Part shown: positions 10,170-25,000 of the stretch, one piece after another
Position numbering within the stretch: position 1 is the first letter of the stretch
Layout of the letters: each line of letters begins with the position of its first letter
Origin: a virus
Virus record (IMG/VR): IMGVR_UViG_3300046689_000187
Span: 1-25,642 of that record
Length of the DNA stretch: 25,642 nucleotides
Strand: one strand, 5' to 3'
Notes under the pieces: model-generated
What the model saw: only the letters and a program-made list of their open reading frames with translations
Told to the model about the DNA's origin: nothing
Database searches by the model: none
Made by a program: the position numbers and the translations under genes

Positions 10170-10700
10170 ATGCCCCGTCCAAGAAAGCCAGGAAAACAAG
10201 ATCTTCCCCAGAATTTGCACGAGCCGAGGACTGGCTACTACGTGTATCGAGATCCTCAAACAAAGAAGACTCGGGCGATAGGAAGAGATCGCGAGGTTGC
10301 GATTAAATATGCGAACAGGATGAACGATCTGATGGGCATAGGACCGGCAGCGCCAGTGATTCCAGCCGGTGATTTAGGGTTCTCGGGCACGCTGAGCGCT
10401 GAATATATTCTCGGTCTCGCAAAGCCAGTCAAGAAAACCTGTGGGGTCTATTTCTTGATGCTTGAGCGGGAAATCGTGTATGTAGGTCAGTCTACAAACT
10501 GCAACCTACGGATCGGGAACCATCTGCTGGACGGCCAGAAGGCCTTCGACTCCTATTTCGTGGTCGAATGCCCGACGAACCGACTCGACGAGATGGAGGC
10601 CAAGTACATCGTCAAGTTTCGCCCCAAGCACAACGTAACCATCCCGAAGGTTGCCAGCGAGATAGAAAAGCTGTACGCGCTCGTAGAGATCGGAGGTTGA
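10170..10700 (+). CDS. Fusion of lambda-Int-type arm-binding domain and GIY-YIG nuclease
   Basis: 176 residues. Residues 1-55 (DLPQNLHEPRTGYYVYRDP, TKKTRAIGRDREVAIKYANR) follow the N-terminal arm-type DNA-binding domain of lambda integrase (DLPPNLY...GYYCYRDPRTGK...GLGRDRR-AI). After a linker (55-88) comes a GIY-YIG domain: G92-V-Y94, Y104-V-G106, R114, H118, E143 and N155 are in the expected order, so the catalytic Tyr, Arg and Glu are present. No tyrosine-recombinase catalytic domain is present. It would bind a specific DNA sequence and cut or nick nearby. It starts 54 bp from the att core on the side opposite int, with only a weak ribosome binding site (GGAT). The role could be in att-site mobility, excision control or homing; none is shown. 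Confidence 0.75.
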   Translation: MPRPRKPGKQDLPQNLHEPRTGYYVYRDPQTKKTRAIGRDREVAIKYANRMNDLMGIGPAAPVIPAGDLGFSGTLSAEYILGLAKPVKKTCGVYFLMLEREIVYVGQSTNCNLRIGNHLLDGQKAFDSYFVVECPTNRLDEMEAKYIVKFRPKHNVTIPKVASEIEKLYALVEIGG

Positions 10701-10819
10701 ATCAAGCACTTACGCAGGGTTTTGAACAGGGACTTGCACCCTCAAGAAATCGGAGTATCGTGCCGATATTCAATAACCAGACAATTACGCATGCTGTTGG
10801 TGCGCGCCGGAGAGTAGAG

Positions 10820-12004
10820 ATGGACCAGACGAAAAATAGACCGACTGTAGCGGTCATCGTGCCCTATTACAATGGCTCGAAATGGATCGAGCGCGCGATA
10901 AAAAGCGTCGTATCGCAGACGGTCCCGCCGGATGAATTTGTGATCGTCAATGACGGCTCGAAGCCTGACGAGCGCGCGGCACTTGTCCCGCTGGCAACGA
11001 AATATGGATTTCGCATAATCGACAAAGCGAACGGCGGCCAGGGTTCAGCCCGTAATGCTGGCGTCGCTGCGACGAAGGCCGAGTTTATCTCCCTGCTCGA
11101 CCAGGATGATTTCTACCTGCCTCAGCATATCGAAGACTTGCTTGAGCTAGTCCCCGAACGAGATCTTCGGCTAGGCTACGTCTACGCCGATCTGTGCGAA
11201 GGCGACGAAGACGGCAACATCGTCCATTCGAACATGCTTCGCCAGCAGGTCGGGATGCACCCGAAGCAGGGCAATATCACCCACATGCTGGGCCATGATC
11301 TGCATGTCCTGCCATCAGCGTCGTTGATCCTGCGAAGCGCGTTTGAGGCTGTCGGCGGCTTCGATGAGCAGTTCATGGGCTACGAAGACGATGACCTGTT
11401 CCTGCGCCTGTTCCGCGCCGGATATACGAATTACTACCTGGACAAACCGGTAACGGTCTGGTGCATGCACACCGGGTCAACGTCGTGGAGCGTCAAGATG
11501 TCGCGCAGCAGGTTCAAGTATTTCAGGAAGCTGGTTGGCATATACGGGGATGAGCCGAAGAAAAACCGCTTCTACCTGAAAGACTGTCTGATACCGCGAT
11601 TCGGCCCGGCCTTCGTCAATGAAGCGAAAAAGGCGGACAAGGATAAATCACCGGATGCCTCTGAGCTGCTGGATATTCTGTGTGCCTACCGCGATATCGT
11701 CGAAGTCAACAAAAACGTCGAGGACGATTACAAGCGCTATCTGGCCCGCGTGATCAATATCATCAAGGGTGAGCCGGTAACGAAAGAGATATATGGCACG
11801 TATCAGGAATCGCTCTATCAATGCTACCTGTCAACGTCGTGGAAGATAACGTGGCCCCTTCGTCTGGGCAGCGAGGATCTGATACCCGATGACGAAGAGA
11901 CCGCATACGAGAGATTTATGCGTGTGCGCGCTTCGCTGTCGTGGAAGGTTGCAGCGCCGGTACGCATAGCAAAGCTGGCGTTGCGCCGGCTGGTCGTTAG
12001 TTGA
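10820..12004 (+). CDS. Family 2 glycosyltransferase (candidate surface-conversion gene)
   Basis: 394 residues from ATG 10820, with GGAGAG six bases upstream. Residues 8-220 form a GT-A fold: VAVIVPYYNGSKWIERAIKS, NDGS (44-47), NGGQGSARNAG, the DXD-like DQDD (94-97) and FMGYEDDDLFLRLFRAG with the likely catalytic acidic pair. No transmembrane segment is seen. The C-terminal part carries two S-W-K-x3-P-x-R motifs (340-348 and 374-382), a tail feature of some cell-surface glycan transferases. In P22 the serotype-converting gtr genes also lie between attP and the tailspike, so O-antigen or other surface modification of the lysogen is likely. GtrA and GtrB partners are absent. The last 8 bp overlap the convergent fibre-like gene. 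Confidence 0.75.
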   Translation: MDQTKNRPTVAVIVPYYNGSKWIERAIKSVVSQTVPPDEFVIVNDGSKPDERAALVPLATKYGFRIIDKANGGQGSARNAGVAATKAEFISLLDQDDFYLPQHIEDLLELVPERDLRLGYVYADLCEGDEDGNIVHSNMLRQQVGMHPKQGNITHMLGHDLHVLPSASLILRSAFEAVGGFDEQFMGYEDDDLFLRLFRAGYTNYYLDKPVTVWCMHTGSTSWSVKMSRSRFKYFRKLVGIYGDEPKKNRFYLKDCLIPRFGPAFVNEAKKADKDKSPDASELLDILCAYRDIVEVNKNVEDDYKRYLARVINIIKGEPVTKEIYGTYQESLYQCYLSTSWKITWPLRLGSEDLIPDDEETAYERFMRVRASLSWKVAAPVRIAKLALRRLVVS

Positions 12005-13211
12005 TACGCGTTGCGGTCAACGTTCCGTTCACGCCCATCGTGCTAGTGCCGAATACCGAGAACGCCACGCAGAAGACGGTCGTAGGGGCCGAGAACGATT
12101 GAGCAAAAATCGGCGTGGAAATGACCTGACTTTGCCCGGCAGTAAAACTTGCAGCCAATTGCGTTGCCTGAAAGTAGTTCGCCGGGAAAACTGCTGACGT
12201 TGTCGTAACCCCGCCATTGATAGAGCCGATCGTTGTTGTCGCGCCGGCAATAAAAGCGAACGAGCATTGTAGATTCCAGTTTCCTGCCGGCACGCTGAAC
12301 GAAGTCGCATTAGCCGCGGTGCCGGTCGTCAGGGATGTTCCGCTAGTGCTGTGCAGGATGGTCTGACCGACCATGCCGGAAGCTGCGAACGATCCTGACG
12401 TGCTGCCGGTTGACGTGACAACACCGGTGCCGCTTACCGAATACAGCGCGGTTCCGGAGTTGTTGTCCAGCCAAAATAAGCTCGCTCCGGCCGGAAAGTT
12501 ATTGGCTTGCGCCCACAGGCCGTTTTTCCAGCCAGTGCCGTTCAGTCCAATGGCTGCCGTGGCCGGATTAGCGAAGTTAGCCAACCACAGACCAACCTTC
12601 ATCTTCGTCGCGCCGAGCGGCGAAGCAACAGTCGAACCGTTGTTCACCACGTCGATTTCGTTACCGATAAGCTGACCGTCACCACTGGGGTTGATGGTTG
12701 CTATGTCGTTGCCGCCCCACGCGAAACCATTGGTGACAGTACCCGCGATAGCTCCGTCCCGGCGCGCGCCTACGGCATTCGTAAAGCCGTCGCCCGTCGC
12801 ATCGATGGCCTGAAACTGTGCACAGTCCTGCTCGGCCAGGGAAGTATTGGTCGGAGTGATATAGCACGCGACGTTAAACCCGACCTGGTGCCCGACTGCC
12901 GAATTGACCGAACCCCAACGCCAGAACGAATTCAACCAGCCGCTAAAGGTGGGTGAGCCCGGCGCCGCGCCGACAGTTTCGCTTGTCACCGCGCTACCAG
13001 AAAGAGCCTGGCCGATGGTGAAGGTTGAGGATGTCAACCCGTTAAGTATCGCATTGCCCGACCATGCCGGCGCAGTGCTTGCGCCAGTAGAGACGATTAC
13101 CTGTCCCGCCGTCGAGCCAGCAGGATTAAGCAGTTGGACCGGATTAAGTGTGGCCCCGAACGAAGCAGCGCAGACCAGAGCGAGGGCCGCGATAGTGAGA
13201 AGTCGTTTCAT
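11997..13211 (-). CDS. Fibre-like protein with Sec signal peptide
   Basis: 404 residues. MKRLLTIAALALVCAASFGA is a typical Sec signal peptide with cleavage likely near residues 17-20. The rest is rich in Gly, Ser, Thr, Ala and Asn and starts with the tail-fibre style segment AGQVIVSTGASTAPAW, then PTFSGWLNSFWRWGS and long beta-rich stretches. Four Cys are in the mature part. It reads like a phage tail-fibre or adhesin, but virion fibres do not normally carry export signals. It is the last late-strand gene, after the lysis cassette, and starts after the upstream small gene with AAGGA as ribosome binding site. It could be a secreted receptor-masking or adhesin-like protein of the lysogen, or a fibre with a fortuitous hydrophobic start. 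Confidence 0.6.
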   Translation of the reverse strand: MKRLLTIAALALVCAASFGATLNPVQLLNPAGSTAGQVIVSTGASTAPAWSGNAILNGLTSSTFTIGQALSGSAVTSETVGAAPGSPTFSGWLNSFWRWGSVNSAVGHQVGFNVACYITPTNTSLAEQDCAQFQAIDATGDGFTNAVGARRDGAIAGTVTNGFAWGGNDIATINPSGDGQLIGNEIDVVNNGSTVASPLGATKMKVGLWLANFANPATAAIGLNGTGWKNGLWAQANNFPAGASLFWLDNNSGTALYSVSGTGVVTSTGSTSGSFAASGMVGQTILHSTSGTSLTTGTAANATSFSVPAGNWNLQCSFAFIAGATTTIGSINGGVTTTSAVFPANYFQATQLAASFTAGQSQVISTPIFAQSFSAPTTVFCVAFSVFGTSTMGVNGTLTATRIN

Positions 13212-14687: not shown

Positions 14688-16661
14688 TCAAAGCATCTTT
14701 ATCCGGACAGTGGTCGCGAAGTCAGCCGCAGCCCCTGATCCATTGGCTGTCTGTACAACTACCTGAGTCACGCCGGTCGCTATTCCGCTAGCCATAGCGA
14801 TGCCGGTTGTATTGGGAGTGACGTTGACAAGTGCATTTGTCGACGCAAGTTGAGGAACGGTCAGCACATATAGACCGGGACCAGTTTTCGAGCATGCAGT
14901 CACGCCTAAACTGTTCGAGAGAACGCCTGATGAACTGATCTGACAAACCGCTTCGCCGTCGATCAGTGAACTCGGAGTTACGGCCGGTTGCTCACTGGCG
15001 AAGCTGAACGTGTTGTCATTGAGCATGTCATTCGAACGGAATCCGAAATAACCGCTTCCACCCGGCGCCTGAACAATTGCGGGATTGTGTGGCACCAGGC
15101 CACCATTGAAAAATCCGTTGCCACGGATCTGCGCGTTGAACGGGCTCCCTACGGCGCCCAATGCCGATGCATCGATGAAGATATGGTTGGTGACGAATTT
15201 CGTCGCGTCGATCTTGTCGAATACGTTGCCCTCGACAACCATATTTCCGTGCGGCATGGGATTGACCAGCACCTGAAAGATGTCAGCCGGCCCGAAATTC
15301 CCTTCGAAATAATTGTTGTAGAAGCTGCTCGCCGCACAACCAGTCCCGCCGTTGTAGGTCAGAGTGAGCGTCGCCGCGGTGCCATTGCCATTGCCTTCAA
15401 ACGAGCAATTTCTGAACGCCACCACAGTGCCTAACAGAGACGTACCAGCGCTCTTGATATTTGAGTCAAATGCGCACGAATCCCATTCGATCAGGTTGGG
15501 CGGCGTTACCGTGCCCTGCTGAGCAAGGAATCCAAGGTTATTTCCAGACAGAGAAACCTTGACGAGCTTCATGCTATTGACATCGGTAAGCTGAAGGCCA
15601 GTATCGAAACCCGTAATGGCGATATCTTCAATGACGCCGTGAATCGTCGTGCTAACGAGCAGACCAACGCCAGCGGGAGTGGCAAACGGCCGGTTAATGC
15701 GAAAACCCTTGACGGTCATCAGATCCACAAAATCACCGGCACCGATCACCGAAAGAACGGGCGATGCACTCGCCCCGGTATAGAACAGCAACGTATCTTC
15801 GGAACCGTCTCCCTCGATGCGCGGTCGGCGCCCATGATCGTTGAGTCCACCACTGACGTTACTGAACTGAGCCACCAGCGGAGTGCCGATGATGTAGCAG
15901 CCAGATGGGATGACAAGACGACTGTTCTGGGAAATGGCGGTATTAAGTGCAACCTGAAACGCGGCAGAATCGTCAGTGACGCCATCGCCCTTCGCGCCGA
16001 AGTCCTTGACGCTGATTCGCTCCCTGAGCTTGCTCTGGACAGTCCGGGAGAGTGAGCCCGCATCGCCTTCGATGTACGCTAGCTTTGTGCTGTTGATGCC
16101 AGCGTTCGCCGCAACGGAGGCATCCGTCACAGCCCCCGTTCCAGGTGTGCCGATGGCGATCGTCGTCCCGATCTTGACAGTGACGAGAGTCACGCCGACC
16201 GGGATCGGCGAATTGAACGTCAGCGTCGTGCCACTCAGAGAGAGTTGGTTGTCAGCCTGATAGGTGCCATCGAAATACACCCACATGTTCTGGACAGAAC
16301 CAGGGGCGGTGGTCAGCGTGAGTTGTGTCGTAGTGCCAGGCGTGAAATTCGTGCCGGCAACGAACAGGTTGTCTGTCAGATCGCCAGTGAGGCCAGCATT
16401 CGGATCTTCGGTGATCTGATCCCAGATCGTGACGCCCGATGCATCCTTGACAATCTGCCGATAGATTCCATTTCCCCAGATGATCGCCTGACCGCGGCTG
16501 TCGAGCTGCACCGGGTTCGTGTTGGCGATCGTGCCGGCCGAGTCCTGAAACGTGGCCTTCGGGGTAAGCGTGCCAGGGAAGTAGAATCCGACTGTGCCGC
16601 TGGCAAGCGGTTGCCCAGCGGAGTCGATGAATTGACTCTTTGCGTTCGGCAGGATTTGCAT
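14688..16661 (-). CDS. Tailspike with pectate-lyase-type beta-helix
   Basis: 657 residues. Residues 1-90 form an N-terminal head-binding part (GQPLASGTVGFYFPG, VQLDSRGQAIIWGNGIYRQI). Residues 100-165 are a beta-sandwich (FTPGTTTQLTL, VYFDGTYQ, FNSPIPVG) shared with the gene at 22513. Residues about 203-235 (SLSRTVQSKLRERISVKDFG, AKGDGVTDDSAAF) start the right-handed beta-helix typical of tailspikes that bind and often cut host polysaccharide. The catalytic residues cannot be assigned. The C-terminal 100 residues are probably trimerisation or tip structures. It is separated from the ejection genes by two terminators and precedes the lysis genes, as gene 9 ends the P22 late region. Confidence 0.8.
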   Translation of the reverse strand: MQILPNAKSQFIDSAGQPLASGTVGFYFPGTLTPKATFQDSAGTIANTNPVQLDSRGQAIIWGNGIYRQIVKDASGVTIWDQITEDPNAGLTGDLTDNLFVAGTNFTPGTTTQLTLTTAPGSVQNMWVYFDGTYQADNQLSLSGTTLTFNSPIPVGVTLVTVKIGTTIAIGTPGTGAVTDASVAANAGINSTKLAYIEGDAGSLSRTVQSKLRERISVKDFGAKGDGVTDDSAAFQVALNTAISQNSRLVIPSGCYIIGTPLVAQFSNVSGGLNDHGRRPRIEGDGSEDTLLFYTGASASPVLSVIGAGDFVDLMTVKGFRINRPFATPAGVGLLVSTTIHGVIEDIAITGFDTGLQLTDVNSMKLVKVSLSGNNLGFLAQQGTVTPPNLIEWDSCAFDSNIKSAGTSLLGTVVAFRNCSFEGNGNGTAATLTLTYNGGTGCAASSFYNNYFEGNFGPADIFQVLVNPMPHGNMVVEGNVFDKIDATKFVTNHIFIDASALGAVGSPFNAQIRGNGFFNGGLVPHNPAIVQAPGGSGYFGFRSNDMLNDNTFSFASEQPAVTPSSLIDGEAVCQISSSGVLSNSLGVTACSKTGPGLYVLTVPQLASTNALVNVTPNTTGIAMASGIATGVTQVVVQTANGSGAAADFATTVRIKML

Positions 16662-16740: not shown

Positions 16741-16947
16741 ATGAATGGTGATCAGTTCTGGAATGCGGTCGTCAAGACGGTTGTTTTCTGCCTGCTTGTG
16801 GTAGTGATCCCCCCGATTTACCGCAGACTATTGCGGGCGTGTGATCGCATTGATGAGCGCATTGCCCGCAGGCGCGGCGAGTGGGACTCCGTAGCGGGAA
16901 AGCGCATTCCCTACTGGGACCGCGAAACCGGGCCGCGCCGTAAGTAG
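16741..16947 (+). CDS. Small membrane protein, opposite to the late operon (candidate moron)
   Basis: 68 residues from ATG 16741, with GGAG six bases upstream, an ideal ribosome binding site. MNGDQFWNAVVKTVVFCLLV plus VVIPPIY is one membrane helix, followed by a highly basic cytoplasmic-type tail (RRLLRACDRIDERIARRRGE). Its last 120 bp overlap the end of the gp16-like gene on the other strand. In P22 the immI region, including sieA (superinfection exclusion), lies at this same place between gene 16 and gene 9, so an exclusion-type function is plausible but unproven. It might also be a chance ORF. Confidence 0.5.
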   Translation: MNGDQFWNAVVKTVVFCLLVVVIPPIYRRLLRACDRIDERIARRRGEWDSVAGKRIPYWDRETGPRRK

Positions 16948-19173
16948 AGCTTGCGCAGCCTTCTGACCCATTGCCGTATAAGGAAGTGCGCCGACGCCCA
17001 TCGCAGCAGCCAGCGGCGCGGTATAGCCGGGCACGAATGCCTGACCCAACGCGGCCGGTCCCATCAGGGCGAGCAGCGCGCGACCCGGAGTGCCTGAATC
17101 CGGGTATTTCGACCCAAGCACGGATTGGCCAGCGCTTGAGAAGTCCTGCATCAGTGCGTTGCCTGTTGCAGTCGCGCCTTTCCCTGCTGACTTATCCGCG
17201 CCGCGCACTGCATTATTCAGTTGCGCCGCAGTGAAAACGCCTTCGTTGTTCATCGCCCCTTGCGAGCCGGCCGCCGCGCGCAGGCGCACGAAGTTGGCAT
17301 AGGCCGAATTCGCATTTGCCAAGTCCTGAACAGCATCCGACGCGTTGTTACGCGGCAAGGATTGCTCGACAAGGTTTTTCACCTCGCCGATAGCCTGTCC
17401 GAGCTGCTGATTATCGAAAGACGGATCGCCGGTCAGGCCGCGCGAGATACGGCCAAGTTCGCTTTGAACGCCCTTCAGCGTCGCGCCGTCCATTTCGCCT
17501 TGTGGCGACAGCTTGCCGACGATCTGGTTTTTCACCACGCTCATGAACTGGCCTTGCTGCGCCGGGGGCAGGTTCTGCGCCATGCTGGCAAGGTTTCCAA
17601 GGTCTGACTGGAACTGCGGATCTGCCTTGAACGTCAGTTTTGACAGCGCATCGTCATAGGCATTGCTGATCGTCTTCTGTACGGCGGCAACGCCTTCATT
17701 GCCAATCGGGCCATCATAGGTCTGACCGAGCGGCGCAAGCACCTCGTTATAGGTCGCCTTGTTGAATCCCTGCACGGCGCGTTGCTGGCCGTTTTTAATC
17801 ATGTCGCCGACGAATGGAACGCTGGTCAACTTGGCTTCGGTGCGCGCCGCGGCGCCCCCGAGAATCTGACCTGGTGTGAGCGGCACGCCGGCATCAAGAA
17901 GCTTCTGCTGAGCCGCGCCGACAGTGGGAGAAACCGCCGCGCCAATTGCTCGCATCAATGGATTGGCGACGCCGCCGACGATCGCGCCAGTCCCGGCTTG
18001 CTGCAATTTCTGGTTAGCGTACCCTTTCGACACGTCAGTGACGGGCTCAATCAGGCTATTGGCCGCACCAGAAAGCGCGCCAGCACCGATGCCGCCAATA
18101 ACGCCGCTGCCAGCCGGCATTGCTGCCGCGAGAGGGACAGCGCCGATTGCATTACCTACTCCGCGACCGATGTCTATGCCGGTGCCGCCGTTCGCCGCGC
18201 GCTGAGCCGCATATTGCGCATCCTGCGACTGGATGGTCTGGTCGATCTGCGGAACTGCTGCATTCAGGTCTTTTGTGAACTGCGCGTCGGGCGCGATCTT
18301 ATTCGCCAACCATGCGCCGCCGTGCGCGAGCGACTGAACGCCGCCTTTGATTGCATCGCCAATACCCATCGTGACCGCGCCAGGAGGCTGCCACGGCTTT
18401 CCGTTGACAGTCTGCTGCGCTGTCGTTGGCTGAACAGTCGCTGCCGGCGCTGTATCCTTTGCTGACATCACGCTGTTCGCCATCGCCAGGAGGGGATCAT
18501 CAGCGGCCTGCGCGGGCTGTGCCGATGCCGTAGGCGCTGCGGGAGTAGACGAAGACGCTGCGGAGCCTGATTGGACCGCATTCGCCATATCGAGCAATGG
18601 ATCACCAGTCGATGCCGGCGGCGCTGACGTGGGCGCGGCGGCCGGCTGTTTCGTAGCTTGCGGCATGATCTGTTGTCCTGTGGCCGAGATGACGGGCGCA
18701 CCGCTCATCTGTTGCGGGCTGAGTTCGGCTGCATTTGCGCTGCCAGAGATCGCCGAGGCAATCGCGTCCCCGAATTTCCTCACCATTCCGACCGCGCTCG
18801 ACAGCTTGTTAGCGTAGCCTGAATCTGTGGCATAGCCGCCGGCCTTCAGCGCCTTGCCATATGCAGACGCATCAGAGCCCGCACCTATGGCCCCTTTGTA
18901 GTTGCTGCTGATCAGGTTAGCAAAGTCATTGCCGAACGCCTGCGGGCTCGAATAGGCGCGGTACTGATCATTCGAGCCGGTCTGGTTATCCGTCGCGGCA
19001 ACGCCCGGCCCCTTGATGTTGCCGAGGTTGTTCGTGCCGGGAACGACCGACTTGCCCCAGCCGGTTTCGAGTCCCCACTGACCGAGCAGGACATCGGGCG
19101 CGACGCCGATCCGCTGGCTGACGCTGGCCGCGACCGGCGCGTACTGCTGGATGAACCCTTGAACGTTCGGCAT
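16828..19173 (-). CDS. Ejection protein (gp16 position) with glucosaminidase domain
   Basis: 781 residues from ATG 19173, overlapping the previous stop (TGATG). Residues about 5-95 (QYAPVAASVSQRIGVAPDVL, LGQWGLETGWGKS, NNLGNIKG, YRAYSSPQAFGNDFANL) form a FlgJ/GH73-like peptidoglycan hydrolase with E36 as likely acid. This would open the cell wall during DNA entry. A low-complexity Ala/Pro/Gln linker (about 150-270) follows. The long C-terminal part includes Gly/Ala-rich hydrophobic segments (AIGAVPLAAAMPAGSGVIGG...) that could insert into membranes. Order and size match P22 gp16, which is ejected with DNA. It ends opposite the small plus-strand gene. Confidence 0.7.
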   Translation of the reverse strand: MPNVQGFIQQYAPVAASVSQRIGVAPDVLLGQWGLETGWGKSVVPGTNNLGNIKGPGVAATDNQTGSNDQYRAYSSPQAFGNDFANLISSNYKGAIGAGSDASAYGKALKAGGYATDSGYANKLSSAVGMVRKFGDAIASAISGSANAAELSPQQMSGAPVISATGQQIMPQATKQPAAAPTSAPPASTGDPLLDMANAVQSGSAASSSTPAAPTASAQPAQAADDPLLAMANSVMSAKDTAPAATVQPTTAQQTVNGKPWQPPGAVTMGIGDAIKGGVQSLAHGGAWLANKIAPDAQFTKDLNAAVPQIDQTIQSQDAQYAAQRAANGGTGIDIGRGVGNAIGAVPLAAAMPAGSGVIGGIGAGALSGAANSLIEPVTDVSKGYANQKLQQAGTGAIVGGVANPLMRAIGAAVSPTVGAAQQKLLDAGVPLTPGQILGGAAARTEAKLTSVPFVGDMIKNGQQRAVQGFNKATYNEVLAPLGQTYDGPIGNEGVAAVQKTISNAYDDALSKLTFKADPQFQSDLGNLASMAQNLPPAQQGQFMSVVKNQIVGKLSPQGEMDGATLKGVQSELGRISRGLTGDPSFDNQQLGQAIGEVKNLVEQSLPRNNASDAVQDLANANSAYANFVRLRAAAGSQGAMNNEGVFTAAQLNNAVRGADKSAGKGATATGNALMQDFSSAGQSVLGSKYPDSGTPGRALLALMGPAALGQAFVPGYTAPLAAAMGVGALPYTAMGQKAAQALLTARPGFAVPVGNALSRYGVPLAAPAGNALINAITRPQ

Positions 19174-20669
19174 CAGAATGCCCCGAGTGCCTTCATGGCC
19201 TGATAATCCTTCGTCCACTGCTGCAACTTGCCGTCAGCCTTCATCTGCTGCATCGCGGCTTGTTGGTCTGCTGGATCACCGAGCGATCGGACGTAGGAAA
19301 CGTCAGGATTGAATGCCTGATTCCACTTCGTTTCGAACTGCGGAAGCTGGCTGGTGTTGTTGCCGTTCTGCGCGAGGAAATTCGTCGTCGCATTCGAGCG
19401 ATCGAGTACGGCTTGCTGCAAACCCTTCACGTGCTGAATGGACGAAAGAAGCGCGGGCGCGTTCATGTCGTGCGGATCGGGTTGCCCAGCCTTCGCTGCG
19501 GCAAGGCGCGAATCGCTGCCCGAGAGGCCGAGAGCGGACGCCGCCTGATCTGCTGCCCCATTCAGGTAATTGACGAGCAACTGATTGTTTTTGACCGTAT
19601 CGGACCCCGCCTGAATGCCGAATGTGTTGAGCAGCGCCGGCACGTTGAGCGCAGATGTTCCACCCTTACCCGGCAACGCCGCCTTAGCCGCCTGCGTCGC
19701 GAGGTCATAGGTCTGCATCATCGGCTTGGCCTGATTCGCCGCAGCCTGGAGCGTGCTGAAGCGCCCCCCGGCATCGTTCGCTACCTTGTCGGCACCGAGC
19801 GGAGGTGCAGCCGAGAATCCACCGCCGGGAAGCTGGCCGGGAAGTTGCGCCGGAGTGCCGCCGGCAGCACCAGGCGCACCACCTTGCCCGGAAGGTGCCG
19901 GTGCGCCGCCCTGCGCGCCAGCAAACTGCCCCTTCGTGATCATCGTCGGCTGGCCGTTCGCATTGACCGTGACCGGGCTCGCAGCATCGGACGGAGACAA
20001 ACCGTTCTGCACCGTGTAGCCGACCGTGCCGACGCCGCCGCCGGCCGCCATCGGGTTCTGATTGACTGCGACAGTCGCCGGGCCAGTGTTGATCTGCGCG
20101 TACTGCGGCAGCATCGCGTGAAGCTGGGTCTCACCGGATAGCGCTGACATGTAGTGCTGCGATACCCACTGGCGAAGCTGCTGCGGGTCTTGCGGCATCG
20201 ATTGCATTTCAGCCTGATATACCTGCGGCGTGATCGAGCCGGCCTGCAATTGCGTCGTCGCGAAGCCCTGCACGTCTTGAGGCGAGAGGTCGGGTTTGGT
20301 AAGCAGGCTGCCGAGCCCTTGGCGCAGTCCGGTTTGCGCCTTTATCGACTGATCAAGCTGGCCTGTTTGCAGCGTCTGTTGCTGCTGCTTCTGCGTGTTG
20401 ATGCCCTGAATCACATTGGGCAGGTTGTATGCCGCATCCTGATTCTGACTGAGAATGCCGACGAGCTTGTTGTTGTCGACCTGGCCGGTCGTCGGGTCAG
20501 TGGCCTGCTGATAGGCGGCCGACGTGGCGCGGTTCGCGGCGAGCTGCTGTTGAGCGGCCAGCCCGTTTGCATTGAGCGCGCGGTACTGCGCGATCGACAG
20601 CGCCTGCTGTAACGGATTGGCCGGCGCCGGTCGGTTTGAATTCAGTGCGATGCTTGGATCGATGGGCAT
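19173..20669 (-). CDS. Ejection protein (gp20 position)
   Basis: 498 residues (MPIDPSIALNSNRPAPANPL...). The N-terminal 120 residues are Gln/Ala-rich helix (ALNANGLAAQQQLAANRATS). The middle (about 245-295) is a Gly/Pro/Ala low-complexity linker. The C-terminal part is helical (LLVNYLNGAADQAASALGLS, HVKGLQQAVLDRSNATTNFL). Composition, length and position between the gp7-like and gp16-like genes match the P22 gp20 class of internal ejection proteins, which are delivered into the cell and form part of the DNA channel. Sequence similarity is weak, so the call rests mainly on context. Confidence 0.6.
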   Translation of the reverse strand: MPIDPSIALNSNRPAPANPLQQALSIAQYRALNANGLAAQQQLAANRATSAAYQQATDPTTGQVDNNKLVGILSQNQDAAYNLPNVIQGINTQKQQQQTLQTGQLDQSIKAQTGLRQGLGSLLTKPDLSPQDVQGFATTQLQAGSITPQVYQAEMQSMPQDPQQLRQWVSQHYMSALSGETQLHAMLPQYAQINTGPATVAVNQNPMAAGGGVGTVGYTVQNGLSPSDAASPVTVNANGQPTMITKGQFAGAQGGAPAPSGQGGAPGAAGGTPAQLPGQLPGGGFSAAPPLGADKVANDAGGRFSTLQAAANQAKPMMQTYDLATQAAKAALPGKGGTSALNVPALLNTFGIQAGSDTVKNNQLLVNYLNGAADQAASALGLSGSDSRLAAAKAGQPDPHDMNAPALLSSIQHVKGLQQAVLDRSNATTNFLAQNGNNTSQLPQFETKWNQAFNPDVSYVRSLGDPADQQAAMQQMKADGKLQQWTKDYQAMKALGAF

Positions 20670-20682
20670 TTTCTATCTCCGG

Positions 20683-21462
20683 TCAGACCGCTAGGCCGTT
20701 GCCTGCTGATGTAGAGGGAGTCCATCCGGGTATGCCGCCGCTTGCTCCCGCACCTCCAGCGCCTCCAGCATTGTTCGAGAGAAGCGCGTAACTTGTGATG
20801 CCGTTTGAGATACCATTCAGACCAGACGAAAGAGCATTCGCGCTGCCGATGGTGCCGGCCGCTTGTGCATTCGCGCCGCTCGTCAGAGAGTTGCCGATGT
20901 TGCCGGCCGCTGCCGCGCCCAGGCTACCATTTGTCGCTGCGGCGTTCTGGCCATTGCTCACGATGCCTTGCAGGCGATTGACCTGGTTCGACGCGCTGCT
21001 GTAGTTCGTGTTGAATGTCTGAAGTGCGCGGTTGAACACATCGTTATAGGTCGAGTCTGCTAGGCCAGTCGTATAGCCAGCGGCGCCCTTCAGTGCAGCT
21101 CCCGATACACCGAGCCCGCGCGCGGCTGCGCTGTTCTGTACCGACTTCAAACCCTGCTGAAGCGTGAACTGATAACCGGGCGACGCCTGCGCCTGTGCTG
21201 CCGTTGGTGCGCTGAATTGTTGCGTGAGCATCGGATTCGACAGCGCGCTCTGCAACGAATTGATATTGTTTGTGCCCAGGTCAATGAATGGCTTTAGATT
21301 CGCCTGAGTCTGGTTCCATTGATCGTTTTGCAGATGGGCTGCATCCTCAGACGCCTGCGCCTGCACATCTGCTGCATGTTTGGAGGCATTTGATGATTCA
21401 ACAGCCCCAACCGTGCCAGCTACTGCCGTCCCGACACCGACTGCTACCGCTGCTGCGACCAT
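20683..21462 (-). CDS. DNA transfer/ejection protein (gp7-like)
   Basis: 259 residues. A hydrophobic Ala/Val/Gly N-terminus (MVAAAVAVGVGTAVAGTVGA) is followed by helix, then the well-conserved block ASPGYQFTLQQGLKSVQNSA / ARGLGVSGAALKG / LADSTYNDVFNRALQTFNTN that marks the phage DNA-transfer (P22 gp7-type) family. The tail is Gly/Ala/Ser-rich. In P22 gp7 is packaged in the head and ejected first. Starts 10 bp after the GNAT gene and ends 13 bp before the gp20-like gene. Confidence 0.75.
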   Translation of the reverse strand: MVAAAVAVGVGTAVAGTVGAVESSNASKHAADVQAQASEDAAHLQNDQWNQTQANLKPFIDLGTNNINSLQSALSNPMLTQQFSAPTAAQAQASPGYQFTLQQGLKSVQNSAAARGLGVSGAALKGAAGYTTGLADSTYNDVFNRALQTFNTNYSSASNQVNRLQGIVSNGQNAAATNGSLGAAAAGNIGNSLTSGANAQAAGTIGSANALSSGLNGISNGITSYALLSNNAGGAGGAGASGGIPGWTPSTSAGNGLAV

Positions 21463-21472
21463 GATTTACCCC

Positions 21473-21925
21473 CTAGAGCCATTTTTCGTAAGTCGTTTCG
21501 ACGGGCTCGAAGTCGAGAAACTTGAACAGTGCCGATGCATCGTGCTGAACCTTGCTGCCGACTGCCCAGCGCTTCACACCGCGGCGCCGCAGTTCCTTCT
21601 CAACGAACCGGAACATACGTACACCGGCCAGGCCAGTCCGCTTGTCCTCGCGCACGAAGAAGATGTCTGGAGAGCAGGTCAGGCAGTCACGGTAATGCAG
21701 GCCCGGCGCGATGAAGCACACGAAGTAGGCGACGATTTCGCCCCGCTCGCGTCCAATGACCATCAGCAGCGAGCCGTCGAGTTCGCGCGCACGATAGACC
21801 TCGACAACCGGGTCGAGCGGCACGCCGTGATCCTTGTGCGTTGAGATCTCGCCGTAATGCGCGCGCAGAAGCGGCAGCAATTCGCCATAGACGCCCGAAA
21901 AAGGCTCAATCGTGAACGTGATCAT
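21473..21925 (-). CDS. GNAT-family acetyltransferase
   Basis: 150 residues. N-terminal FTIEPFSGVYGELLPLLRAH, then strands around LLMVIGRERGEIVAYFVCFI, the acetyl-CoA-binding-like segment VREDKRTGLAGVRMFRFVEK and a C-terminal strand-helix (VGSKVQHDASALFKFLDFEP) form a GNAT fold. Such proteins transfer an acyl group to an amine of protein or small molecule. It is coupled by ATGA overlap to the oxygenase gene. Position within the head-tail and ejection genes is unusual for an enzyme; similar phage GNATs are found in podovirus structural regions. Substrate unknown. Confidence 0.7.
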   Translation of the reverse strand: MITFTIEPFSGVYGELLPLLRAHYGEISTHKDHGVPLDPVVEVYRARELDGSLLMVIGRERGEIVAYFVCFIAPGLHYRDCLTCSPDIFFVREDKRTGLAGVRMFRFVEKELRRRGVKRWAVGSKVQHDASALFKFLDFEPVETTYEKWL

Positions 21926-22503
21926 CGCGAGGTCCGCACGTCGACGACCATCGAGACACGCTCATCGGCGCTGTTGTTTTCCACCGAATGCACCTGGCTG
22001 TTGTCAAACCAGAAACATTCGCCGGTCAGCATGTTGATCTGCTCGTCGCCAGCCTTCAGGACCGCGCCCGGCAGGCCATGCAGCACAATATGGAACCGCG
22101 TGTAGTAGCGCGTCTGCTCGGGCGTGTCGGCGTGCGCGAAGATCCGGCCGCCGGGCACAATCTTGTTGATCATCACGCGCCCAAGCCGCTCGCCGGCCAC
22201 GCGCGCCATCAGGTCGCGCACCAGCGGACGCGCTTCGTGCAGCACCTTGTATGGCGGGTAGTCGATCGCCTCATACTGGTCATACCCCGCAAGCTGATTC
22301 TGCTTGTACAGGTCAATCTGTTCCTCGGTCAGCCCCTCGACCTTCTCCGGAAAGCGCAGCATGATCGTTTCGGTCTCGCCGAACGGGCCCTGCGGATAGT
22401 GGCGAAGGAACGTGTCCTCTTTCCAGAGATCGGGCCGGCGGCGGATCGCGAGCATCAGCGGATTGACGTCGACACCGCTTGCGAGGAAATGGAAGTTTTT
22501 CAT
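21922..22503 (-). CDS. 2-oxoglutarate/Fe(II) oxygenase, aspartyl/asparaginyl hydroxylase-like
   Basis: 193 residues. The double-stranded beta-helix motif is clear in the C-terminal half: PGGRIFAHADTPEQTRYYTR with H124-x-D126 as two iron ligands, GECFWFDNSQVHSVEN with H172 as the third, and R182 (DERVSMVVDVR) to bind 2-oxoglutarate. These residues fit the Asp/Asn beta-hydroxylase family. The reaction would be hydroxylation of a protein or peptide residue, with 2-oxoglutarate and oxygen. The target is unknown; a capsid, tail or host surface protein is possible. It lies between the tail-needle-position gene and the GNAT gene. Confidence 0.75.
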   Translation of the reverse strand: MKNFHFLASGVDVNPLMLAIRRRPDLWKEDTFLRHYPQGPFGETETIMLRFPEKVEGLTEEQIDLYKQNQLAGYDQYEAIDYPPYKVLHEARPLVRDLMARVAGERLGRVMINKIVPGGRIFAHADTPEQTRYYTRFHIVLHGLPGAVLKAGDEQINMLTGECFWFDNSQVHSVENNSADERVSMVVDVRTSR

Positions 22504-22512
22504 TTAGCTGCT

Positions 22513-22860
22513 TTAGCCTCTCGCATAGACGTTTGACGTGCCGACCGGAATCGGCGACGTGAAAGTGATCGTGTTGCCGGAAACGCTGTATTGGTCTGTC
22601 GCCTGAAACGTGCCGTCGAAGTGCACCAGCACTGCGGCCCTCGACGCGTAGGCCTTCGAGAGCGTCAGGGTTGTAGTCGTGCCCGGCGTGAAATTCGTGC
22701 TGGCGGTGAAGATGTCCTCAACCGTAGTTGGCGGTACGCCGCCGCCCGTACGCTGGAACAATGCGAGCATGAAAGCCCACCACACCTGAGAAATACGGCC
22801 ACCCTGATCGAGAAACTGCACACCCGGATTCGGGATATTCGTGTTTGTCGCGTCGCTCAC
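22513..22860 (-). CDS. Short tail protein with tailspike-like beta-sandwich (tail-needle position)
   Basis: 115 residues from GTG 22860, overlapping the gp10-like stop (GTGA). Residues 10-40 (IPNPGVQFLDQGGRISQVWW...LFQRTGG) are a conserved phage segment. Residues 51-107 (NFTPGTTTTLTLSKAY, VLVHFDGTFQ, FTSPIPVG) closely match residues 100-165 of the tailspike at 14688. It sits where P22 has gp26 (tail needle) but is much shorter and has no long coiled coil. It may be an adaptor that carries the same sandwich as the tailspike, or a truncated fibre. Confidence 0.6.
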   Translation of the reverse strand: MSDATNTNIPNPGVQFLDQGGRISQVWWAFMLALFQRTGGGVPPTTVEDIFTASTNFTPGTTTTLTLSKAYASRAAVLVHFDGTFQATDQYSVSGNTITFTSPIPVGTSNVYARG

Positions 22861-24281
22861 GTGCGCGCCCTCGACACATCAACCCATGCGCCATTCAATG
22901 CAGTCTTTACCGGTGCGGACCACGACAGCTCGAACACGCGATCGCGCGCATAGCCGAGCCGCTGATACTGGATGGAGGTCAGGTATTCGCCGACCTTGCC
23001 GAGCGAGCCCACGACCCAATTGCCCCAGCTACGACCGCGGTCATCGGACCAGCGAAGCCGGATTTCAGGCGGCGCCGAGTCATCAGGCAGCCCGTTACCG
23101 ACTTCCATGTCTGCGATGAACTGGCGGAACAGCACGCGGTTGCCATCGGCACCGAGGATGTGCGGGAACGCGCGGACATATTCGATCGTCGCGCCGTTGT
23201 CCGTGTAGTTGTCCTGGTCGAGCATGTAGACGAGGCCCGTTTGCCAGTCTCCAACCAGATTGCGGCCACCGTTGAACGAATGGCAGTTCATACGGTGCCG
23301 GCTGAACGTGCCATCGGCTTCCAGAAAGCCGCGTTGCGCCCATTCGCCGGTTGCAACATCGAAGCACCACGTAGCATTCGCGGTCGGGAACGTCAGCACA
23401 TAGAAGGCGTGGCCGCCCTGCTGGTAGGAAAATCCGATCGCATCATCCACGCGCGAATAGGCCGACAGCGCTTCCTCGATGGCATGCGTCGAGATGCGCT
23501 CCGCAACGTAATTGCGACCGGCAAACACGATGTTCTGCCCTTGCAGATCCTGCCCGAGCCAGAACAGCGCCAGATCTATCTTCGCGACTGAATGCTTGGC
23601 CGCGCATCCATGCTCGATGAACACGCCAGGCATGCGGCCGAACGTGAAATCGGAGGCGCCAGTGTTGTACCAGACCTCTGTCGTCAATTCGCCGAACAGC
23701 CAGATTTCCCGGTGCATCACCGCGAGCGTGACGAGGTTGTCCGAATAGGTCGACTTCGATGCAATATCGAGCGGGTCGAACGTCACGTCATCGAACAGCG
23801 AGATATAGAACTGCTGTGTGCCGGGCCGGTTGAACAGAAAGAAACCGTCGACGAAATCGACCTTGTCAGCACCGAAAAATGCCGGATCACTCACCACCGA
23901 TACGACGTTCGTCGCCAGCTTGACCGTGAAGCCGCTCGCAGTTCCATCGACAATGAACAGGTCCGTGCCATTGTCGACCATGGAAACCGGGCCAGACGTT
24001 GAAACCAGTGAGCTGAGAACCGTATAGACGTTTGCTGCGCTTACCGTAAAGATCGTCGATCCGACGACCTCATAGCGGTTTCCGTTGCTCGCCGTGTATA
24101 TGCCGCGGCTTTCACCCGTAACCGGCGGCGTCGAGACGAGCGTCAGGCCCGGCGTCGGGTAATAGGTGAACGGGCACGGCGCGTCCTGCGGATTCTGTTC
24201 CGCGTATAGATTGACCGAGCGCTGAGCTTCGGCGATCACGCTGCGCGTCTGATAGGCGCCGGTTGTGAGCGGGACTCGCAT
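22857..24281 (-). CDS. Packaged-DNA stabilisation / tail hub protein (gp10-like)
   Basis: 474 residues. The start MRVPLTTGAYQTRSVIAEAQ, RSVNLYAEQNPQ and the repeated strands (GIYTASNGNRYEVVGSTIFT, LFIVDG, DIASKSTYSDNLVTL, WLFGELTTEVWYNTG) identify the P22 gp10 family, a beta-propeller that forms the tail nozzle. It follows the gp4-like gene (TGATG overlap) and precedes the gp26 position, the same order as P22. Length equals the family norm (about 470). Confidence 0.85.
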   Translation of the reverse strand: MRVPLTTGAYQTRSVIAEAQRSVNLYAEQNPQDAPCPFTYYPTPGLTLVSTPPVTGESRGIYTASNGNRYEVVGSTIFTVSAANVYTVLSSLVSTSGPVSMVDNGTDLFIVDGTASGFTVKLATNVVSVVSDPAFFGADKVDFVDGFFLFNRPGTQQFYISLFDDVTFDPLDIASKSTYSDNLVTLAVMHREIWLFGELTTEVWYNTGASDFTFGRMPGVFIEHGCAAKHSVAKIDLALFWLGQDLQGQNIVFAGRNYVAERISTHAIEEALSAYSRVDDAIGFSYQQGGHAFYVLTFPTANATWCFDVATGEWAQRGFLEADGTFSRHRMNCHSFNGGRNLVGDWQTGLVYMLDQDNYTDNGATIEYVRAFPHILGADGNRVLFRQFIADMEVGNGLPDDSAPPEIRLRWSDDRGRSWGNWVVGSLGKVGEYLTSIQYQRLGYARDRVFELSWSAPVKTALNGAWVDVSRART

Positions 24282-25000
24282 CAGTTCGATTCCGTGTCGC
24301 TGTAGATGTTGTAGCGCGACTTTGTCATCAGGCCGCGCGGCATCGTCAGTTGCGGAATCTGTACGTTCATCCGCTTCACTACGCGCTTGGCGTTCATCGC
24401 CAGTCGAACGAGAGCCGGCGAAGGATCAAGGCCATAGGACGGCGCTAGATAGACCGCGAGGTTGTAGCGGATTGCGGCCAGATATGGCGGCGGCAGGTTG
24501 ACTGCTGTCCCGGCGGTCGCAAGCTGCGGCAACGTGTCCATTGTCACGATATGCAGCTCGTAGCTGCTGTTCGGCACCGGATAGAGGAACAGGTTGCCGA
24601 GCGGGAACGCGGAATCGTAGAACGCATATTCCGGGAAGGAATTGAGCGTCTTCAGCGAGATCCGCGCGTAATCCTCGCGCGCGTCGATCATCGAGATCGG
24701 ATAGTCGACCGCGCTGCCGGCGCCGCTGCTCGCGAGCCGCGCATACGCCGCATTGATCTTGAACGGCCGCACGACGTTGAAGTCACCGCCGAGGCCGACC
24801 GTGTATGAAACCGACCCGTTCGCCTGGTGTGCAGTGTCGATCAGGTGGAAAACGCTCAGACGATCCACGGCCCACTGGCCGAGCATCATATTGAGCGTCG
24901 CCAACCCATCGGCCGTGTCTTCAGCAGAGACAGACTGACCGATACCGAGCGCGCCGATATCCTTCAGCGCTAGCGTGATCAGGTCGGTTCCCGTTGTCAT
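24281..25000 (-). CDS. Head-to-tail adaptor (gp4-like)
   Basis: 239 residues. MTTGTDLITLALKDIGALGI, VSAEDTADGLATLNMMLGQW, then FPLYP-like strands (FPLGNLFLYPVPNSSYELHI) and the C-terminal helix AIRYNLAVYLAPSYGLD match the P22 gp4-type tail accessory family, which binds the portal and seals the head after packaging. P22 gp4 is about 166 residues; the present family is longer. It is coupled by ATGA overlap to the upstream small gene. Confidence 0.8.
   Translation of the reverse strand: MTTGTDLITLALKDIGALGIGQSVSAEDTADGLATLNMMLGQWAVDRLSVFHLIDTAHQANGSVSYTVGLGGDFNVVRPFKINAAYARLASSGAGSAVDYPISMIDAREDYARISLKTLNSFPEYAFYDSAFPLGNLFLYPVPNSSYELHIVTMDTLPQLATAGTAVNLPPPYLAAIRYNLAVYLAPSYGLDPSPALVRLAMNAKRVVKRMNVQIPQLTMPRGLMTKSRYNIYSDTESN

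Follow-up and report, generated by a model that had tools for sequence, protein, structure and literature searches.

The window, which is the whole 25,642-nucleotide (25.6 kb) stretch of environmental DNA that forms virus record IMGVR_UViG_3300046689_000187, carries on its minus strand a module of head-closure, tail, and ejection genes in which a 2-oxoglutarate (2OG)/Fe(II) oxygenase gene and a gene for a GNAT-fold protein are embedded. The features of this module, in the order of their reading direction, are as follows.

24281-25000, minus strand: P22 gp4-like head-tail adaptor (phrog_637, 5e-11; weak match to P22_Tail-4, E=0.014)
22857-24281, minus strand: P22 gp10-like head closure/packaged-DNA stabilisation protein (phrog_578, 1.9e-113)
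22513-22860, minus strand: 115 aa protein encoded just ahead of the oxygenase, in the tail-needle position of P22 gp26
21922-22503, minus strand: 2-oxoglutarate/Fe(II) oxygenase of the AspH/cis-P4H type, 193 aa (PF05118, 1.2e-13)
21473-21925, minus strand: GNAT-fold N-acetyltransferase-like protein, 150 aa (phrog_1249, 6.4e-10; AlphaFold model)
20683-21462, minus strand: P22 gp7-like DNA ejection protein (phrog_598 'DNA ejection', 4.8e-35)
19173-20669, minus strand: large protein at the gp20 position, assigned to ejection from synteny alone
16828-19218, minus strand: protein in the gp16 position with an N-terminal peptidoglycan hydrolase domain (PF01832, 2.2e-20; phrog_3513, 1.6e-38)
14688-16661, minus strand: tailspike, downstream of the gp20- and gp16-position genes

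The homologues of gp4, gp10, and gp7 that define a P22-like ejection module are present in order, and P22 gp7 itself was recovered by an iterated profile of the gp7-like protein (8e-25), whereas the protein in the gp20 position matched no family in the Pfam or PHROG profile searches. The oxygenase and GNAT reading frames (22503 to 21922 and 21925 to 21473) share the bases ATGA, so that the TGA stop of the former overlaps the ATG start of the latter by 4 bases; the coupling of the two genes inside a virion module, as described in an initial sequence-only reading of this DNA, was thus confirmed. The oxygenase gene starts 9 bases past the stop of the upstream 115 aa gene, and the gp7-like gene starts 10 bases past the GNAT stop with its own Shine-Dalgarno sequence (AGGGGG). 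Because no promoter-like site was found in 20600-24400 and the gaps around the pair are 10 bases or less, the two genes appear to be part of the late operon.

Two further observations concern other features of the window. Over its C-terminal ~67 aa, the 115 aa protein shares 55% identity with a tailspike domain, which may mean that two tail parts carry one and the same domain for docking or modification. A family 2 glycosyltransferase gene (10568-12004) lies on the opposite, plus strand and adjoins a tail-like gene (11997-13211, minus strand); it possibly serves surface modification of the host.

Active sites of the oxygenase and the GNAT-fold protein

The oxygenase matches PF05118 well above the curated cutoff (51.6 vs 22.6 bits), and a PDB search with a profile of 44 relatives returned proline 3-hydroxylase, human AspH, and L-proline cis-4-hydroxylase (7e-07 to 3e-06). 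Its AlphaFold (AF2) model (pLDDT 89.7) has a double-stranded beta-helix fold, for which the best Foldseek match in the PDB is the L-proline cis-4-hydroxylase 4p7w (E=1.8e-10), followed by AspH. The metal ligands are H124, D126, and H172, with R182 as the 2OG-binding arginine (H124-x-D126 ... H172 ... R182), and these residues align with those of 4p7w and human AspH. Across 146 distinct sequences, H124, H172, N176, and R182 are invariant (146/146 each) and D126 is kept in 145/146; this conservation extends to sequences without a GNAT. The plain reading of these residues is that the protein would be an active Fe(II)/2OG hydroxylase. AspH is without the aspartate metal ligand, and because D126 is present here, the phage oxygenase is nearer to cis-P4H, with which it has the HxD...H facial triad in common. 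A second pair of residues, R136 and H138 in the cofactor/substrate pocket, aligns with residues of both AspH and cis-P4H. Phage oxygenases that lack a GNAT partner form a sub-type with Lys at R136 and Ala or Tyr at H138, implying possible differences in the pocket for substrate or cofactor.

Like other members of the PF05118 family (human AspH, 4p7w, proline 3-hydroxylase 1e5r, and LpxO), the phage protein combines the double-stranded beta-helix with a distal arginine. It differs from these relatives in its small size (193 aa), the absence of TPR domains, its own N-terminal ~95 residues, and its location in an assembly operon, and its identity to them is ~15-20% in fold alignments. Membership in the LpxO lipid A hydroxylases was rejected: the match reaches 15.1 bits vs a 500-bit equivalog cutoff and covers the C-terminal half only (match values of 0.0087 for P0002 and 1.2e-4 for PfAn1). 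A defence or anti-defence role was also dismissed, the match to DrmC being only marginal and meaningless.

The GNAT sequence alone falls below the cutoff for PF00583 (E=0.051), and its assignment comes from phrog_1249 (acetyltransferase, 6.4e-10) and from an AlphaFold model (pLDDT 93.5) that matches the RimI and AAC(3) folds with TM of about 0.73-0.76. Among 129 distinct sequences, the near-invariant residues are H23, E26, Y44, Y67, H77, D87, R96, and K125. Within the acetyl-CoA loop ([QR]-x-x-G-x-[GA]), R96 is kept in 128/129 and G/A101 in 126/129 distinct sequences, but most members have another residue in place of the middle glycine (L99 in the window). The claim that both enzymes have intact motifs therefore stands for the oxygenase (H124, D126, H172, R182) and only in part for the GNAT, in which R96 and G/A101 are retained and the glycine is not. 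Since this glycine of the pyrophosphate loop is missing in most members, catalysis by the GNAT is plausible but not certain from its residues. The median dN/dS is 0.062 for the oxygenase and 0.089 for the GNAT.

Conservation of the pair and of its position

To count neighbours, we used the 128 of 135 distinct oxygenase sequences that had at least 1.6 kb of downstream DNA. The GNAT gene lies directly downstream in 103/128 of these loci, an adjacency far beyond chance, and a gp7 homologue follows it in 98/103. Gene order is kept in all paired loci (103/103) over large divergence, and the 4-base overlap recurs in 85/114 paired loci (duplicates included). The conserved pairing that the sequence-only reading had suggested looking for in gene neighbourhoods, and whose absence would have counted against it, is thus present, and viral-contig searches with each protein separately led to largely the same loci.

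Carriers of the pair are phages and prophages from beta-, gamma-, and alphaproteobacterial hosts. Bacterial genomes that contain it (Achromobacter, Paraburkholderia, Massilia, Janthinobacterium, Cupriavidus, Acinetobacter, Rhodanobacter, Pseudacidovorax, and Sphingopyxis) mostly have it adjoining gp10 or gp7 homologues, and the isolated phages with the pair are Pseudomonas phage PfAn1 and Limnohabitans phage DC33. The DC33 record (PQ492659.1) is classified as Inoviridae, yet its 39 kb genome with the pair is more like that of a short-tailed phage. In Caenibius plasmid p1 (NZ_CP081845.1), a 38 kb phage-plasmid whose capsid is of the N4-gp56 type, the genes for gp4, gp10, small protein, oxygenase, GNAT, and gp7 follow one another as they do in the window, showing that the pair goes with the tail/ejection block and not with one capsid type.

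Oxygenase alleles that are ~80-99% and ~43-61% identical to that of the window alternate among phages whose GNATs are 70-98% identical to the window's. Pairwise oxygenase distances follow GNAT distances (partial r 0.30, 0/300 permutations), which implies that the two travel together and names no substrate. No correlation of oxygenase distances was found with those of gp4, gp10, gp7, or gp20, and nothing here points to the oxygenase having co-evolved with a virion substrate.

Each protein also occurs without the other. At six loci (L006, L395, L396, L398, L399, and L404) an oxygenase without a GNAT lies directly upstream of gp7-type genes, and a GNAT without an oxygenase is found in Zobellviridae and in a Manatee Spring phage. 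In the Massilia violaceinigra plasmid (NZ_CP024609.1), this slot is arranged in yet another, third way: the oxygenase gene is followed by genes for a cupin, for an ejection-like protein, and for a giant polyvalent protein of the PLxRFG type. Because either protein can be found there alone, it is the slot ahead of the first ejection gene that these modules have in common. These arrangements also argue against an obligatory two-step pathway, and the earlier suggestion that one target is hydroxylated and then acylated finds no support. Oxygenase-domain relatives with neither a GNAT nor a gp7 homologue nearby are present in cyanobacterial, alphaproteobacterial, and other bacterial genomes (L401, L403, and L405-L411), some of them within larger reading frames.

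GNATs have been described in this slot before, so that the sequence-only reading was mistaken in holding that it usually contains only structural genes. The cobavirus (pc40) GNAT was proposed as the T7 gp13 equivalent with a suggested role in virion morphogenesis (PMC6775973), Mareflavirus ZP6 encodes one in the same slot (ORF12; PMC8515928), and the slot GNAT of CRP-4/5 was interpreted as a host-metabolism gene (PMC6918029). In Zobellviridae, cobavirus pc40, CRP-4, and ZP6 alike, the GNAT is flanked by tail/head-closure genes on one side and by genes for internal virion proteins on the other. The Zobellviridae GNATs are homologous to that of the window (31-36% identity, phrog_1249), but no oxygenase adjoins them in the members examined. 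The corresponding small proteins of the model phages, T7 gp13 (PF11090) and P22 gp14 (PF11039), immediately precede the first ejection gene (T7 gp14, P22 gp7), as the GNAT directly precedes the gp7 homologue in the window and in 98 loci. Both are annotated as internal virion or head morphogenesis proteins, and neither is accompanied by an oxygenase.

The likeness to T7 gp13 and P22 gp14 is one of position. No similarity to the GNAT was detectable by sequence or profile: the GNAT has no PF11090 or PF11039 match, T7 gp13 and P22 gp14 give no Pfam acetyltransferase signal, and hhalign comparisons of families enlarged by divergent members scored no better than control proteins. A 'host range protein' of phage P694, retrieved by Foldseek as a possible link to gp13, proved to be another gene, located upstream of the portal. 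The GNAT is therefore the T7 gp13/P22 gp14 equivalent by position only.

A parallel exists in Burkholderia phage JC1 (Lessievirus), in which the slot GNAT (gp63) was classed as a moron; virion proteomics found the flanking gp61 and gp64 and did not detect the GNAT (PMC9144972), which fits an intracellular role. The JC1 GNAT translationally overlaps the next virion gene and, as in the window, the module (gp63-gp65) contains a second enzyme, but the GNAT belongs to another family (phrog_4470) and a PAPS reductase takes the place of the 2OG oxygenase. Similarity between the two GNATs is not detectable, and the JC1 protein is a positional analogue only. In the JC1 genome (OM283127, 3425-5590), the GNAT and PAPS reductase genes are embedded in the ejection module although they were classed as morons. 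Cyanophages carry many 2OG oxygenases, for which other interpretations were given (PMC3037559), and our literature search, mainly of openly accessible papers, found no description of an oxygenase-GNAT pair or of an ejection-linked oxygenase; a paper on the history of the Phi-GT1 podovirus likewise does not touch on the subject. The window contains a P22-like ejection module with a GNAT and a 2OG oxygenase in the gp13/gp14 slot.

Proposed role and alternatives

We propose, with a probability of roughly 0.5, that the pair is a late-expressed assembly/ejection cassette in which the oxygenase hydroxylates a neighbouring virion protein and the GNAT acts on the same intermediate. Late transcription would lead to both proteins being made together with the ejection proteins, and both would be active inside the infected cell while particles are being assembled. 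The residue that the oxygenase hydroxylates would lie in a neighbouring virion protein. The gp7-type ejection protein is the first candidate because its gene follows in nearly every phage module seen; the upstream small tail protein, or the gp20 or gp16 proteins, would be the next candidates. The GNAT, in the T7 gp13/P22 gp14 slot, would work on that assembly intermediate too, whether through acetylation or in the role of an assembly factor.

The gene arrangement can also be read with a smaller role for the GNAT, as a non-catalytic assembly factor that is the local counterpart of T7 gp13 or P22 gp14, leaving only the oxygenase enzymatic and the two proteins with a common slot and not a common substrate. 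The unconserved glycine of the acetyl-CoA loop, the morphogenesis annotation of the T7 and P22 proteins in the same slot, its occupation by unrelated GNAT families (phrog_1249 and phrog_4470), and the separate occurrence of oxygenase and GNAT are all consistent with this. We consider it rather unlikely, given that the near-invariant R96, G/A101, D87, H77, Y67, and K125 resemble an active site, that the middle glycine is present in some members, and that the predicted fold is very close to those of active GNATs.

Free amino acids and lipids are among the substrates of PF05118-type 2OG oxygenases as well. Both enzymes might target components of the host (metabolites, the ribosome, RNA polymerase, lipid A, or the envelope), either at a late stage of infection or during lysogeny, with the virion operon providing timing only. 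The relatives of the oxygenase whose substrate is free proline or lipid A (4p7w as the best fold match, LpxO as a weak one) point this way, as do the GNAT Rac of phiKMV, which is reported to act on host RNA polymerase (PMC7552054), and the description of slot GNATs as host-metabolism genes (PMC6918029). Such a role is unlikely when set against a position before gp7-type genes that is kept across differing capsids and hosts, the lack of a visible promoter of its own, and LpxO matches that are partial and far under the cutoff. Still further down in probability, and highly improbable, is a chance insertion of the pair as moron cargo in this phage lineage. The moron label given to the JC1 slot GNAT (PMC9144972) and the exchange of oxygenase alleles between lineages would suit it, but the order kept in 103 paired loci over large divergence, the translational overlap in an interval with no promoter-like site, and the strong purifying selection (dN/dS about 0.06-0.09) all speak against cargo.

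The assembly/ejection cassette thus remains our preferred reading, and two further forms of it are less probable. It is possible, though we regard it as doubtful, that the modification falls on the ejection proteins themselves. Equally tentative is the broader idea that phages widely possess a dedicated system for hydroxylating, and perhaps also acetylating, their DNA-ejection proteins ahead of packaging, and that maturation of the trans-envelope ejection channel requires this step.

With a slot GNAT joined to an oxygenase whose active site is fully conserved, the function of this slot becomes a chemical question that mass spectrometry can answer, namely whether ejection proteins bear modifications that depend on these enzymes. 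If they do, the pair would represent a new step of virion maturation and would provide a use for phage 2OG oxygenases without known substrates, and post-translational modification would be part of the assembly of short-tailed phages.
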